From NCBI GenBank assembly GCA_963920575.1, contig OY986969.1, positions 17,965,288 through 18,029,287 of the forward strand: a stretch of 64,000 nucleotides of DNA. The letters are read 5' to 3'. The translations under genes were made by a program, and so were the position numbers. The notes beneath the pieces were generated by a model, which did no database searches, was not told where the DNA came from, and saw only the letters and a list, made by a program, of their open reading frames with translations. The stretch comes from Narthecium ossifragum. Lineage: Eukaryota; Streptophyta; Magnoliopsida; Dioscoreales; Nartheciaceae. Position 1 is the stretch's first letter; the number at the start of each line of letters is the position of its first letter. Below, one piece after another: positions 14,998-22,164 of the stretch.

Positions 14998-15006
14998 TAT
15001 TTCAAA
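14998..15006. repeat. 9-bp TSD TATTTCAAA (left) of the MULE
   Basis: TATTTCAAA directly left of the terminal inverted repeat; the identical 9-mer is at 20882-20890. A 9-bp duplication is diagnostic for Mutator-like transposition. The perfect match suggests a recent insertion. Confidence 0.95.
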
Positions 15007-15050
15007 GGGTGCGGCTATCCGCACCACCATTTCGACTCAACACACCACAT
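15007..15050 (+). repeat. MULE left terminal inverted repeat
   Basis: Begins GGGTGCGGCTATCCGCACC and continues to the CAACACACCACA block. It matches the reverse complement of 20838-20881 with few mismatches. The outermost bases are themselves palindromic (GTGCGG, four bases, CCGCAC), so each end could fold alone. Confidence 0.92.
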
Positions 15051-15155
15051 TTACTCTACACACCCCAGCCCAAGTTTGAAAACCCCAAGTTTCACTCAAC
15101 ACACTACACAAAATAAATGTACTTACCTAAACTACCCTCAAACCCCACAGCACAC

Positions 15156-15174
15156 TAAACCCTAAACCCTAAAC
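15156..15174 (+). repeat. Telobox-like tract (CCCTAAA repeats)
   Basis: TAAACCCTAAACCCTAAAC, two and a half units of the plant telomere repeat, in the left subterminal part of the MULE. Such short teloboxes are common in plant promoters and bind Telobox/Myb factors. It is too short to be a telomere remnant. Its place, upstream of the plant mobile domain gene, fits a promoter role (inference). Confidence 0.6.
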
Positions 15175-15569
15175 AAAACCCAAAATACCTACACTACCCC
15201 TCAGCCCACTCCAGCCCCTACCTTCTTCCCGTCTTCTACCGAGACTTCCTCCCTCCCTCTTCTACCGAAGTCTCTCCCTCTCTTCACTCTCCCGACCATC
15301 TCCCTCCACCTTCCCAGTTGTGTGTCTCGCGAACGTTGCCAGCCTCCCTACACCCGCGGCAGAGCCTCGCTGGCGAGCTACCCACGCCTCCGTCGAGTCC
15401 GTCGAGTGAGGTGAGGGGACAAGTGAGTTTTTCATTTCTTGTTGCATGAAATGCATTTTCTTTGCATACCTAGCATTGGTTTTGCAGCATTGTTCTCCGA
15501 ATGCGTTTTTTTCCAAGGTTTTCAAATTTTTCCAATGGGTTTCGACCTTTCAGTTTTATACGTATCAAT

Positions 15570-15809
15570 CGGTACAAGACAACCGAATGATTCTCTATAA
15601 TATCGGTACATAGTCACCGATAGTATAGGATTGTTGATCGGTACATAGATACCGATCAATACGTTTGTTGCTGAATGGAAAAGACCTTGTTCGGTATCAA
15701 GGTACCGATATTCTTTGGAAACTATCGGTAACTTACTACCGCAATGTATGCTTTATTACCGGTACTTAAGTACCGTTAAGAACGTTTAATTACCGGTATA
15801 TGGATACCG
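15570..15809 (+). repeat. Palindrome cluster 1: seven CGGTA-N6-TACCG units
   Basis: Units start at 15570, 15604, 15639, 15692, 15725, 15760 and 15794. Each is 16 bases with half-sites CGGTA and TACCG (a few single mismatches) and a 6-base centre that differs in every unit (for example CATAGA, TCAAGG, CTTAAG, TATGGA). Spacing between starts is 33-53 bases. The cluster ends 43 bases before the start codon of the plant mobile domain gene. Confidence 0.92.
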
Positions 15810-16137
15810 AAACACTTTACTAATCTTTGCATTTCTTTTTCAAAACAGTTAAATGGTTCATCCAAGGGGAAAAGCACCCGCCGGAGCCTCTTCATCTTCG
15901 GCGGCCTCGTCATCTTCATCGGCCCGCGTTGACCGGCCGATGGCCTCAGCTAGGAGGAGGAGAGCGGTACTTGAGGAGATTCCAGAGGAGATCCCAGAGG
16001 ATGCCTTGATGGTTGCTGGCCCTGGTGAAGAGGAAGAGGTGTCTGACGACGAGGCACCCATCCCTGGTGGGCCTGTTGACCGGTCGGTTTTGACGGAGTT
16101 CAAAACACACGTGGCATATCGGATATGGGCTGGAGCG

Positions 16138-16216
16138 GTAAAAAAAGGCCGAGTTTTTTTTTATATCATGCCGTGTTTATATCAAAGTCTGCTCACTTTT
16201 CCCCTTCTCAACGTAG
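16138..16216 (+). other. Probable intron in the MULE plant mobile domain gene
   Basis: GTAAAA donor and CAACGTAG acceptor. Removing it joins the conserved IWAGA to RGPL in the order seen in the family, with T-rich sequence before the acceptor. Confidence 0.6.
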
Positions 16217-16667
16217 GGGCGTGGGCCACTAAAAATTTATGCGCCATGGGTTGTCCACTTCGAAATGGGACGGCATCGAACGGCAAGACTTTAAGAATGC
16301 CGTGGAGGCCACCGGTCTAGCAAATCTGACGGTGTGTTCTTACAAGACTATAAGCAGTGCCCTGGTGTCGGCGTTCGTCGAGAGGTGGCATCCGGAGACG
16401 AACACGTTCCACCTGCCCTGTGGAGAGATGACGATAACTTTGGGTGACGTGAGCCGTATACTGGGCATCCCCGTCGCCGGTAGGCCGCTTGAAGAGTGCA
16501 AGTTGAAAGTCTCCCAGCTGAAAGCGCTTATGAAGGTTCATTTGGGAGTCAGTGAAGCAGAGGCCGCGAGCCAGTTGGATGGGAGAGGGCTGTCAGTTAG
16601 TATGACCTGGCTGAGGAGAGAGTGCACTCTCCGCAAGGTCGGCCTGGAGTGCTCTTTGAAATTCAGT

Positions 16668-16749
16668 ATGATAGGATTGTCACGATCATCCACGACACCG
16701 TGGCGCACATGATAGGATTGTCACGATCATCGACGACACCGTGGCGCAC
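16668..16749 (+). repeat. 41-bp tandem duplication inside the PMD gene
   Basis: Two adjacent 41-bp copies (16668-16708, 16709-16749) beginning ATGATAGGATTG, differing at one base. 41 is not a multiple of three, so the duplication itself breaks the frame. Confidence 0.95.
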
Positions 16750-16832
16750 ATGGATACCCTGACCATTGACGACCATAGGAGTAGGTGGGCGCGGGCTCAA
16801 AGAATACGCCTGCCTTTGATTCCATGTTTGAT

Positions 16833-17181
16833 CGGTAGTAGAGTACCGATAAAAGGCTTCACTGTTCGGAAGCGTGAGTACCGTTACAAAGCAAATCAAG
16901 TAAAACAAACACTGTCTCGGTACTCACTCTTCCGAACAGTGAAGCATTTTATCGGTACTATACTACCGATACAACGCAGCTTACGCCTGCCTTTGATTCC
17001 ATGTTGTATCGGTAGTATAGTACCGATAAAATGCTTCACTGTTCGGAAGAGTGAGTACCGAGACAGTGTTTGTTTTACTTGATTGGCTTTGTAACGGTAT
17101 CTAATTACCGATAGTGTCGGGTATAGAACCGGTAGTATGGTACCGATATGTGTCTAGGTTATTATCGGTACTTGGGTACCG
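16833..17181 (+). repeat. Palindrome cluster 2: six CGGTA-N6-TACCG units
   Basis: Units start at 16833, 16953, 17010, 17095, 17130 and 17166. All six have perfect CGGTA and TACCG half-sites. Two of them (16953 and 17010) are mirror copies within the 97-bp inverted repeat. The cluster occupies the space between the 3' ends of the two convergent MULE genes. Confidence 0.92.
16879..17099. repeat. 97-bp inverted repeat with 27-base loop
   Basis: The left arm 16879-16975 and right arm 17003-17099 are reverse complements with one mismatch seen; the loop is 16976-17002. A third, partial direct copy of the arm lies at 16808-16878, preceded by the same TACGCCTGCCTTTGATTCC that forms most of the loop. 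A transcript from either convergent gene that reads through would form a long duplex. Confidence 0.95.
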
Positions 17182-17342
17182 ATAGTTGCGTACTTGATAA
17201 AAAAAAACAGAGTATGAAGCAACCCTTTGCAACACAATGTTTACAACCATACAAGATACTCATACAATGTTTGGAACACAATGTTTACAACCAGACAAGA
17301 TATTCATATTGAAAATCATATAAGACATTAATACCCAAATTT

Positions 17343-20098
17343 TCATTCAAGATCTATGGTGTCCGTTGTAGCAACATCTGATGACACGATTAACCCAAAT
17401 TTTTCTATCTCATCGTTATAGGAATCCCATCCAATGGCACAAGCATCTCGATATCGAGCCCAGCTGCTGACTACTGGTGGCATTGGACATCCAGGCTGCA
17501 TGTGGAGTTGAACAAAGTGATTTCCGTTTACGAACCCGATTGCGATGATCCTCCGTGCCAGTTTCGGGGGCGCTGCTGTCCAAAGTGGCAGTAAGGTCAC
17601 GCATTGTCTTCTGGAGATGTGGAGTAGGACAACCGAGTATCGTGATGCAATAATATAACCCATGTCCGGCATGGTCATCCACCGATCGGGTAGAGGGTTG
17701 TCTTCGAGAAACGACAATGAGTACATAAGCTCGTGAACACGCTTTTCATTCCCATACAAGTTAAGGTAGCCCTCGAAGTGATCACGCAACTCATTGATAA
17801 GATCGTTCCTCACCTGGGCCCAGTTGTCCTCGCCGTAGCCCAATAGCCCGGCTATCGCTCTAAAATCGCAGTTACCATCTGATGCAACATCCTTAACATG
17901 CTTAATATATTTTGTCAACCATTCTGGAAACTCGCCAAGATAGCCCAGCGGAGCGGCTGTCCGAGCCCTTAGCACTCTCTCCTTTGGACGCTTTTTTTTT
18001 GACTATATCAGGCTTCTCTGGTTTCATGCAAGATATGGGACTAACATGTAGAGGAGTTTCCTCTAGTGAGTTACTGTCCTTGAACGAAGGTGCATACTCA
18101 AAGGCGGATGGGTCACGTTGTGTTGAGAGCATCAACTTCTTCTCCTTAGCGCTTGGTCGACCGCGGGTCCTCAACTTCACCTCTGGCTCAAGAACATAAC
18201 TAGACTGCGGTTCTGCTAGCTCATACATTTTCTTCAGCAAATGCATTCTTCCTGCCTCATTCTGAGCTAGAAATTTGTTTTCCAAGAGTTCTAGAGCATT
18301 TTGGCACTTAAGTTTTGGGATTTCATTGGCTGGTGTAGCCAACAAGTCAAGCTTCCGCCAATGGTGATGTATGCATTCTAGGGGTATGGGGCGGCAATCA
18401 AGCTTGTAGTTGGCGATCTCATGGGCACATGGCAAGCCATGTGTGCGTCGGACTGTACAACCACATGCGAACTTATCCGCACCGATCTCATTGGCCCTCT
18501 CAGATTCTTTTTGAACTATTAAAAGAGCACTCTTTGAAATGAAGCCTCGCATCTCCTTGAAGATGGCCGGCTTGAAACTGTGATGCACAATGTATTTGCT
18601 CTTCTCAAAGGAGGCTTTGATATCACAGTGTTGCAGCTCAAGCAGGGAGTGAATAGTAGCCCACGATGTGTCAAAACTGCAGCTGGATGCCCCGAGATGC
18701 CTCTTTAACTTGGCATGTGCACTCTCTACCCTGTTTGTAGTGTGATTGCTAAAATGCATATATTCGTCAGTCCAAGCACTGACGAACAATTCTTTGAAGC
18801 CATCCAGCCACGATTCCCGAACATATTTAGAAGCTGCTGGGTAACCGCAAAAAGATGTCTCTAGTGTCTCCAAGTGTTTCTTGTACTCCTCCTCGGTAGA
18901 TGCAGTTACAACCAATTTCCACATTGTCATGAACAAGTCGGCTTTATCTGCAGTTTCGAAAATGTGTTTGCAGCTGAGCTCTACGTTCTTTTGGATATGC
19001 CATCTACATAGCATGCTTTTGGACTCCGGAAAGACCGAGCTGATAGCGTTCATCAAAGCCAGTTCTCGGTCTGTCACCACAACGCGTGGCATTGGGCATC
19101 CTTCCAACAATGTCCTTAATATTTTCAAAGCCCATGTGTACCTGTCCTCCTTCTCACACTCCATGTAGGCAAAAGCTGCGGCGAATGTCATACTCGTCGA
19201 CGTGACGCCAACAATCTCTAGCAGTGAAAGTCGATATCTATTGGTCTTGTAGGTGCAATCCATAATCAACACCTCGGAAAATGCACGGACTAAATCAATA
19301 GACACAGGGTGTGCCCAGAATACGTCCCTCACAGCGTCTGTGTCTTCTCGAACCGTATGATACTCAACGTATCCAAACTCATTTAGATGCTTCAATAGTT
19401 GTTGCATCTCTGATCTCCCAGCCTTTTCAATCACCCTATTCCTTTGGCGTACATTGTAGATGGTCTTCATGGTGGATACGTTTTCAGGATCTTGTTGCTT
19501 TATAGTGTTCAGGATTTGCCGTGGCTTCACTAGGGTTGCTAACATCGTAACCACCATATCATTTTGTTCAGCAGATAATCTTCCCGCGAACGAGTGACCC
19601 TCGAGGTGATCCGCATGGGAGTGATTGTGGACTCCGCAAAGAACTCTTAGCATCCAATCATCATCAGATACAAGATTCACACCCTGAAGCTTGAAAGGAC
19701 ATCCACACTTCTTCGTCCCGGAGTCGACGAATTTTTTCTTTCGATTGGCAAATTTTTTCTTCCCGCTATCATCTTTCTTCACAGTTTTCCGATACTCTTC
19801 ACTGCGCTCACATGCCAAGGTAATCCTCGGCTTTCTACCACACCCCCCTGCCTCTGAATTCTTTGTCACAATCACCAGCCCATTCTGCCTCCCAACTGTC
19901 TGTACCCATTGGACAAGTGCTTGTCGACTTTGAAATATCTATAACCAAACAATAAGAATTATGTTAATGAAGTTTAGACCTAGTTGTCGTCCGGCAAGAT
20001 ATAGCGATTTAACAACATACCGTACTGGTCGTGAATTCCAAGGTGTAGTCGTGAGTAATTATAGCTCCTACACCGCTCGCATCAGTAGAAACATGCTC
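17343..20098 (-). CDS. MULE transposase with C-terminal OTU cysteine protease, one frame slip
   Basis: Two exons are visible: 20098-20021 (26 codons) and 19939 downward, joined across an 81-bp intron (GTATGT donor, GTTATAG acceptor). Order: FAR1-type N-terminus with SRQALVQWVQ and the Cys-rich TKKCGCPFKL; MULE catalytic core with Asp in IMDCTYK (about 19260), Asp in VVTDREL (about 19070) and Glu in NRVESAHAK (about 18730); SWIM zinc finger CGCTVRRTHGLPCAH (about 18430-18475); basic linker; OTU domain with catalytic DGNC (about 17870) and GNHFVQL His (about 17515). The transposase frame stops at 17902; the OTU frame overlaps and is joined by changing one base at the A9 run 17992-18000. All catalytic residues are kept. 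A further 5' exon (20449-20395, MDGEDECW) is possible. Confidence 0.88.
19940..20020 (-). other. Intron in MULE transposase gene
   Basis: 81 bp with a GTATGT donor and GTTATAG acceptor on the minus strand. It joins HDYTLEFTTST to IFQSRQALVQW in phase, as expected for FAR1-like transposases. Confidence 0.7.
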
Positions 20099-20150
20099 CT
20101 GAATGTAAGCAAAGAGTTAGTAAGGCAGGTAGCTAACACTGTGTTCACAT

Positions 20151-20339
20151 CGGTACCATGGTACCGGTATACTAACGTATTAATCGGTACCATTTTACCG
20201 GTATATAAGCTATAGTTTCGGTGGATACGTCCCGGTATACATAGCATACTAATCGGTACTATGTTACCGGTACATTAAGCCAAAGTATCGGGTTCTACAT
20301 ACCGATACGTTGACGTTTTCTGTCGGTCTAATACTACCG
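20151..20339 (+). repeat. Palindrome cluster 3: six CGGTA-N6-TACCG units
   Basis: Units start at 20151, 20185, 20219, 20254, 20289 and 20324, spaced a steady 34-35 bases. Three have perfect half-sites and three have one to three changes. The cluster lies just upstream of the second transposase exon, so in its first intron or 5' leader. Confidence 0.9.
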
Positions 20340-20577
20340 ATCAAAACGCGATCCGGGAAGGACAAAAAAAAACAAGAGAAGAGGAAATGTACATTTTTTG
20401 AGCGCCTTTTCTCGTCTCCTTCGCTCCAGCATTCATCTTCTCCATCCATTTCGACCTAATACACCTTGGATTGACAATGTATAATGGGGAGGGCTTGTGT
20501 GAGTTGAAAACCTAAGGTTGGAGGAGATAGTTTGGAGTATAATGTGAATGTGTTGGAGGATAAGAAAGAAGATAGAA

Positions 20578-20660
20578 TAACTTGAAGACCTAGGGCTTGG
20601 AGGGAGGGGGAGTGAGTAACTTGAAGACCTAGGGCTTGGAGGGAGGAGATGGTTAGGGAT
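20578..20660 (+). repeat. Short tandem duplication in the MULE right subterminal region
   Basis: TAACTTGAAGACCTAGGGC followed by TTGGAGGGAGG occurs twice in a row (from about 20578 and from about 20617). No coding potential. Confidence 0.8.
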
Positions 20661-20837
20661 TGGAGGTGAAAATTCGGTAGTAAGAGAAGGAGAAGATGAT
20701 GGTTAGAGGTAGGAGAAGATGTGGTGTTGTGGTGTATTGAGAAATAAATCTTATGGTAGATTAGGTTTTGTGGTGTATTGTATTTCAGAAGGTTAGTTTG
20801 GACATATCACCCATGGGTCTTTTGGGTATGAAAAATG

Positions 20838-20881
20838 GTGTGGTGTGTTGAGTCGAAACAGTGGTGCGGATAGCCGCACTC
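20838..20881 (-). repeat. MULE right terminal inverted repeat
   Basis: Reverse complement begins GAGTGCGGCTATCCGCACC and matches the left end over about 43 bp. It is followed directly by the TSD TATTTCAAA at 20882-20890. Confidence 0.92.
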
Positions 20882-22164
20882 TATTTCAAATTATGGGATT
20901 TTAGTATGCATCTTGATATCATGTATAAGCTTGGGCCGATAGTGTGCCCCGTTTTCTGATTCTTTCTCTGTGAGTGATGTGTTTGGGTGTATTGTAGCCT
21001 TTTGGCTTGTTGATACCGGCTTCTGACCGTGGCTTTGTTATAGCGCCGTTGTGCTGTCGGAATTCCTGAGAACCGGGTTTGGTTCTGTATAAGCTACTGG
21101 ACAATTGAATGATGATTTGGCATGTAAAGACACCTAGGCCTAGTTGCTTGTATAGGCTCATGCATGTTGTATGCATTAGAAGCATTAAAGCTAGGTGGTA
21201 GGCAATGGGTTCGATCGCCGATCCGGGGTTCTCGGGTAGCCCCGATCTAGCCCTAGGACTGGGGTTTGGGTAGTCGAGGATTAGGACGTGATTGTCATCA
21301 ACGATCAGGCTTGATATCACTTGAGGTTATTGTTATAGTCGACCATGTTTGATATTATTGTATCTGAGGTGTAGAGGTCGTGTCGGGACTCCAAAGCCAA
21401 GCGCTAAGGATGGTTGTCGATGTCCCTGACATGTGTGTCCCCGCGAAAGATGGTATGACTGGGCAGGGTGGTACCTGGACAGGAGCCCGCAGTCTTTGTT
21501 TCCTCTCGTCTGTTCTTGGGTGAGGGTGGGACCTGGACAGGAGCCCTCGGGAATCGACGGGGTTATGGGGCCCCTTGGCATACCTTAGGCTTAGGCGGAG
21601 AACGACACAGTTGCAGTTTCCCTTCTTTTTTGTGTGATGTAGAGTAGAACCCTACTGGGCATTGTTGCTCACCCTACCTAGGCTGCATCGACGATGCAGG
21701 TCGATGCAATTCCTTCTTTCAAGTGTTCCTTTAGAAGATGGCGCGGTATTTCGAGGTGATAGACGACTTAGAGCGTTGAGGAGTTCGTCAGCAGATAATT
21801 TACAGTTTTAATCAATGATGTACAAATTGATGTATAAATCGAGGTATAACATGATGTATTCAAGAACAGAATTGTATGAGTATTAATTCGATTGTATTTG
21901 AGAAGTGTTGTCATTTGAGAATTATAATAATTAGTTATTTACCATGTTATCATTGTACAAGTTGAATTTGGAATATTTATGAAATGTACAGGTTTCTTGT
22001 GCCATAATTATAAAGGGGATTCTGACGAAATTCTTTTATGAACATGAGGATTATATTGTCTAAATTCATAGCAGATATATATTTGTGCGCCAATTGATGA
22101 TGTAAACAGGTTTAGGTGGCTCATGCCTCGATTTGGATGGGTTTTTTTGGGTCGGGGCGTGACA

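Follow-up and report, generated by a model that had tools for sequence, protein, structure and literature searches.

Palindrome arrays of fixed spacing in a Mutator-like element of Narthecium ossifragum as probable docking sites for an element-encoded protein

In Arabidopsis, the transposon-encoded protein VANC recognises its own motif where this is arranged in rows, and relieves silencing (PMC5735166, PMC10398659). The motifs of VANC21 and VANC6 differ from each other; their rows lie in introns, upstream regions and intergenic parts and change as tandem repeats (PMC5735166). Mutator-like elements (MULEs) are also known to encode plant mobile domain (PMD) proteins (PMC5418596, PMC7156037, PMC9899485, PMC8616336), and a review describes the function of PMD as unknown (PMC8616336). 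The 'DOWN' motif is found in genes that are lowered in main/mail1 mutants, and its direct recognition by the PMD complex is a proposal (PMC7156037, PMC9899485). The accessible parts of these four PMD papers contained neither a target motif for a PMD encoded by a transposable element (TE) nor a kinship with VANC, and a literature search lying mostly outside subscription journals found no paper naming PMD together with VANC or with DUF1985, and none on the structure 9lnj. Here we analysed 64,000 nucleotides of Narthecium ossifragum (contig OY986969.1, positions 17,965,288 to 18,029,287), hereafter the window, which lies on contig 7 of the 379.4 Mb genome searched and whose genes are those of a flowering plant. 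It holds a MULE at 15007-20881 with a PMD gene, a convergent transposase gene and three clusters of the palindrome CGGTA-N6-TACCG. We consider it probable, at roughly 0.7, that these clusters are docking arrays for the element's own protein, most likely PMD, which appears to be distantly homologous to VANC and to be its counterpart in function. Because a counter-silencing role of PMD in TEs was already proposed (PMC8616336), what is new here is the set of target arrays, their geometry and the link in fold.

Exact copies of the palindrome number 14 in the window, all within 15639-20269, against 0.01 in shuffled sequence. When up to two mismatches are allowed, 19 places fall into three clusters (7 + 6 + 6), accompanied by six scattered matches, one of them inside the element at 16136; the chance expectation at this threshold is 12 per window. 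A preliminary description of the locus had read 19 palindromes with fixed half-sites and a six-base centre that changes in every unit. All 19 places were recovered, but half-sites are invariant in only 14 of them, and the other five carry one mismatch (15570, 15604 and 20324) or two (20219 and 20289). The centres are not all independent: a 97-bp inverted duplication (99% identical; 16879-16975 and 17003-17099) makes those at 16953 and 17010 reverse complements. The conserved core is longer than first noted, AT-CGGTA-N6-TACCG-AT, and among gaps of 0 to 20 bases the element has exact half-site pairs only at gap 6.

The clusters lie where they had been described, before the PMD gene, between the convergent genes and before the transposase exon. 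Cluster 1 (15570-15809; five exact palindromes and two with one mismatch) is housed in the predicted 5' intron of the PMD gene (15423-15848, plus strand), and cluster 3 (20151-20339; three exact, one with one mismatch and two with two) in the predicted intron 1 of the transposase gene (20099-20392, minus strand). Both keep a regular pitch of 34-35 bp, with one step of 53 in cluster 1, and both lie 0.54-0.80 kb from the element ends. Cluster 2 (16833-17181; six exact palindromes) occupies the space between the 3' ends of the two genes at an irregular pitch. The inverted duplication partly produced this cluster, which also contains direct copies (92%; 16805-16888 and 16982-17065), so that its units are not independent.

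A transposase search of the genome gave at least 69 matches, of which 53 show 76-100% identity and the other 16 show 64-66%, from 67 scored of 1,633 first-look candidates, some matches being pieces of one copy. Thirty loci were chosen by their transposase and not by the motif; together with the window element they contain 146 exact half-site pairs at gap 6, two at gap 17 and none at other gaps from 0 to 20, although young copies share units by descent. Exact units are present in 30 of the 31 stretches. The stretch 5' of transposase exon 2 carries 5-9 units with up to two mismatches in 20 of 20 copies (15 from the near group and five from the 64-66% group; none is exact in L035). Among the downstream parts of 10 copies, all have exact units and eight a PMD match (only 24 residues matched in L049, and there was no match in L048). 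A cluster 5' of PMD is present in four of the eight PMD-bearing stretches (L045, L046, L047 and L053), which makes the transposase-intron cluster the most constant one. The between-gene arrays vary among copies through tandem duplications, which span 177 bp in L050 and about 222 bp in L051 and L052. Leaving out CG/CHG decay, pooled variation was 25 of 1,350 cells in half-sites, 38 of 810 in centres and 69 of 2,659 in linkers. The centre drifts most, but the comparison of half-sites with linkers, in which half-sites were less variable in the two copy types other than the window type, is not decisive. We therefore set aside slower half-site change as a proof of selection, the counts being mixed.

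Over the whole genome, searched at spacings N6 to N12, the exact palindrome occurs 6,732 times against 378 for the reversed-pattern control. The N7 version gave 1,338 matches (control 286), and the N8-12 versions together 783 (control 1,920). The N7 matches listed include recurring repeat families, among them CGGTACGGTACGTACCG and CGGTAGTCAAAGTACCG. Adjacent pairs of the motif, at a permitted pitch of 26-46 bp, number 1,645 against none in the control; among the first 50 pairs listed, the pitch is 33-36 bp in 41, 27-28 in seven, 37 in one and 39 in one. The shuffles, the genome-wide control counts and the pair counts rule out a chance origin of the arrays. By eye, the linkers between units belong to several unrelated families, and many sites lie inside short elements (in 200 kb around motif places on contig 1 up to 1.65 Mb). 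Restriction of the motif to a single MULE, as first supposed, is ruled out, since short MULE-like elements and other PMD loci share the motif or its geometry.

A search for terminal inverted repeats (TIRs) in 13 regions resembling miniature inverted-repeat transposable elements (MITEs) yielded, in six, an element of 0.26-0.43 kb with MULE-like ends. Candidates had to show a 9-bp target-site duplication (TSD) with no more than one mismatch and to have a GAG- or GAA-type end on at least one side. The TSDs are perfect in L007a, L017 and L008, perfect but of simple sequence in L021, and carry one mismatch in L019a and L020; for L019a, L021 and L008 the second-ranked candidate was taken. L014, flanked on both sides by AAACAAAAT, was added by eye, and the remaining regions of the 13 gave no TSD/end candidate. 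The short elements carry the same (AT)CGGTA array, and their TIRs are quite unlike those of the window element. By eye, the TIRs of L007 and L021 begin with a palindrome, TGCACATGCC..GGCATGTGCA, as do those of the window element.

The palindrome is itself a case of CGG-N10-CCG, and this geometry recurs with other letters. Among five other PMD genes, for which 951 bp 5' of each were analysed, TTCGG-N10-CCGAA arrays stand at L056 and L059, with a pitch of mostly 33 bp; L055 has six sites at 1-2 mismatches from that sequence and no exact CGG-N10-CCG. There are 13 CGG-N10-CCG in L056 and six in L059, any other gap from 0 to 20 giving at most two. Pairs of CGG-N10-CCG at 32-35 bp pitch number 2,978 genome-wide against 57 for the reversed pattern, and pairs of CGG-N11-CCG 205 against 79 for their own control. 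CGG-N10-CCG is the common denominator of the arrays; its geometry stays constant while the neighbouring bases change, so that lineages have their own codes. In two places (L022 4599-5311 and contig 1, 5338779-5338961), CGGTA-type units appear by eye to be mixed with other CGG-N10-CCG units, for example CGGAAGCAAACACCCG, and the L022-type element may bridge the two motif classes.

The gene partners of the arrays are recurrent as well. A PMD profile search of the genome gave at least 206 matches, of which 117, those starting in the N-terminal part of the profile, were typed for neighbours. A match to the OTU part of the transposase lay within 9 kb in convergent orientation at no fewer than 39 of them, in tandem at 12 or more and divergent at one or more, with none at 65 among the matches listed. 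Of the 49 PMD places in the class whose open frames reach up to 330 aa, at least 31 have a convergent OTU. Seen from the other side, at least 52 of at least 150 OTU matches, among those listed, have a PMD within 9 kb. On contig 1 below 5.85 Mb, three OTU genes among the matches listed lie 0.3-0.7 kb from an array pair, compared with at least 14 kb for three and 2.4 kb for one of four other MULE matches on that contig, a small sample. As cis elements, the arrays recur in MULEs that combine an OTU-type transposase with PMD, and in short MULE-like elements.

The preliminary description had suggested a VANC-like pair of protein and motif, with PMD or the transposase as partner, and the evidence favours PMD. 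PMD is under purifying selection. DUF1985 (PF09331), a VANC domain, is matched weakly by 33 of the 54 PMD homologues in the alignment (threshold E 1; best E 1.4e-5), the other weak Pfam matches in this set being Uso1_p115_head in nine and DUF7745 in four. The PMD exons of L047 and L051 match PF09331 weakly at E 7.2e-4 and 0.016, and all DUF1985 matches of the window's relatives lie below the curated cut-off. For the AlphaFold models of two PMD homologues, P0121 of Cinnamomum and P0125 of Stephania, Foldseek found one significant PDB match each, which is VANC21 with its target DNA, 9lnj. These homologue models suggest a VANC fold for PMD and, with it, kinship of the two proteins. Taken together with the recurrent geometry, they point to PMD as the probable binder of the arrays and as a putative anti-silencing factor.

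Several observations weigh against this interpretation. Foldseek gave moderate TM-scores, 0.41 and 0.52 when scaled by target length, and the models are of homologues only, P0125 being 43% identical to the PMD exon of the relative L047. PMD has no sequence relative in the PDB, where two matches had E 1.1 and 8.5 and the profile had none. VANC21 recognises a non-palindromic 9-mer (PMC5735166). The PMD-side cluster is absent in L050 and L052, reduced to one two-mismatch unit in L051, and falls outside the stretch available for L054, which is too short. Two of the five other PMD loci, L057 and L058, have no array in 951 bp 5'; at L058 (contig 2, 29516080-29517030), a same-orientation stretch upstream of PMD resembles by eye a MULE transposase tail. 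Single TTCGG-N10-CCGAA sites (1,123, control 307) do not stand clearly above the N11-13 versions when counted per spacing (2,417 for three spacings, control 746), a few repeats making up most of the N11-13 matches listed. In young window-type copies half-sites vary as linkers do (2.8% and 2.4% without CG/CHG decay).

The MULE nature of the element is evident from its 9-bp TSD, TATTTCAAA (14998-15006 and 20882-20890), from its TIRs (15007-15049 and 20839-20881), in which 37 of 40 terminal bases match, and from its MULE transposase. The TIR tip is a palindrome, GTGCGG-N4-CCGCAC. The PMD gene (plus strand) has a first coding exon or leader (15853-16140; 96% identical in L046 and L047, 93% in L045) and a shortened PMD domain exon (16239-16655), which matches PF10536 over profile positions 4-104 (E 3.8e-20; 72.8 bits against a curated cut-off of 34.9, also exceeded in two relatives). 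This copy of PMD is broken: it has 149 bp (16656-16804) where L045, L046 and L047 have 1.60-1.65 kb, and a 41-bp tandem duplication (16668-16749) adjoins the deletion. On the minus strand, the transposase open reading frame (17902-19875, 657 aa; PF10551, E 1.4e-25) is FAR1-related by its homologues. Its OTU-like C-terminal part (17343-17975; it shares 101 of 201 residues with the tail of P0001) is in a different frame here, while relatives such as that at contig 8, 4629740 have both in a single 864-aa frame; P0058 is named OTU domain-containing. Transposase exon 1 (20393-20449, minus strand), an ATG with a short acidic peptide, and the two introns are predicted from splice signals in the sequence alone, ACAA|GTGAGT and AACAG|TTAAATGG for the PMD intron, AAT|GTACAT and TTCAG|GAGC for the transposase intron; exon 1 and the latter intron also follow the layout of relatives.

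If PMD is the binder, two (AT)CGGTA half-sites facing each other at a fixed distance would accommodate two protein copies or two binding surfaces, the six-base centre serving as a spacer only. PMD on rows of sites in introns and between genes might then remove or block silencing marks; because of the apparent kinship with VANC, a loss of such marks over the element is the likely effect. With silencing lifted, the transposase and PMD genes would be transcribed and the element ends used, and short elements that have rows but no genes could be served in trans.

It is improbable that the transposase binds the arrays instead, for autoregulation or transposition, in the manner of the Spm/En element of the CACTA group, whose TNPA binds subterminal 12-bp repeats. 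Its FAR1-related homologues, a weak AFT match (E 0.012), the arrays in its predicted intron 1, present in 20 of 20 copies while the PMD-side cluster is found in some, and the closeness of clusters 1 and 3 to the ends agree with such a role, and since the TIR tip has the same triplets at another spacing, CGG-N4-CCG, the transposase stays a candidate. However, the motif itself is not in the window TIRs, short elements share the array across quite different TIRs, and the VANC match belongs to PMD. Still less probable is a host transcription factor that the elements exploit for expression: the predicted 5' introns and a motif common to several element families, including gene-less short ones, would suit it, but a single factor is disfavoured by the different bases flanking CGG among PMD loci of one genome, and arrays also lie between gene 3' ends. 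A structural or neutral origin, in which slippage and duplication maintain hairpin-prone tandem repeats that no dedicated protein binds, is very unlikely; the arrays do expand by tandem and inverted duplication, two-sided changes in the five-base core are compensated in 10 of 10 cases (113 units), and the arms of MITE-like units are often self-complementary outside the core, extending into longer inverted repeats that leave room for a structural role, but half-site letters are identical across unrelated linkers where pairing alone would permit any letters, the loop measures six bases in nearly every unit, and the window-element units pair little beyond the core, which disfavours hairpins as the only explanation.

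Binding of the arrays by PMD would mean that a VANC-like strategy operates in another plant genome, where many copies from several lineages would use a probably related protein together with a different motif, encoded in its spacing. The code has separable parts, namely half-site, spacing and pitch. PMD gains a predicted fold and a candidate target, and the possibility that host MAIN/MAIL1 act via a DNA motif gains a rationale. A wider proposition, to which we give an even chance, is that PMD proteins including MAIN/MAIL1 are sequence-specific DNA binders of the VANC fold and that PMD/OTU-MULEs form a large self-licensing superfamily with lineage-specific CGG-N10-CCG codes of two half-sites, which MITE-like elements carry without genes. 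If so, mobile docking sites for an anti-silencing factor that the elements themselves encode would number in the thousands in this genome, and the host PMD pathway, so far unexplained, would be a relative of this system with a motif of its own.

Among known systems, Spm/En resembles this element in having a short motif arranged in rows, to which a protein of the element binds there and would bind here, but it belongs to another superfamily, has its motif near the ends and not in introns, and has no fixed-spacer palindrome. PMD-MULEs and host MAIN/MAIL1 share the domain, which MULEs encode, but the captured PMDs described, in the parts of that literature available, are transposase fusions, whereas here PMD is a separate convergent gene. 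The closest counterparts, VANDAL21/VANC21 and VANDAL6/VANC6 of Arabidopsis, differ in their motifs, YAGTATTAY and AGTTGTCC/AC in the same orientation (PMC5735166), where this element has the fixed-spacer palindrome CGGTA-N6-TACCG; in their protein, VANC having DUF1985 and DUF287 where we find PMD (PF10536); and in the OTU-like part of the transposase present here. Like the element described here, they are TEs with a transposase and extra genes (PMC5735166, PMC10398659). In them as here, rows of a lineage-specific short motif lie in noncoding parts and gain or lose units in tandem (PMC5735166, PMC10398659), and the PMD models resemble the VANC21-DNA structure 9lnj.

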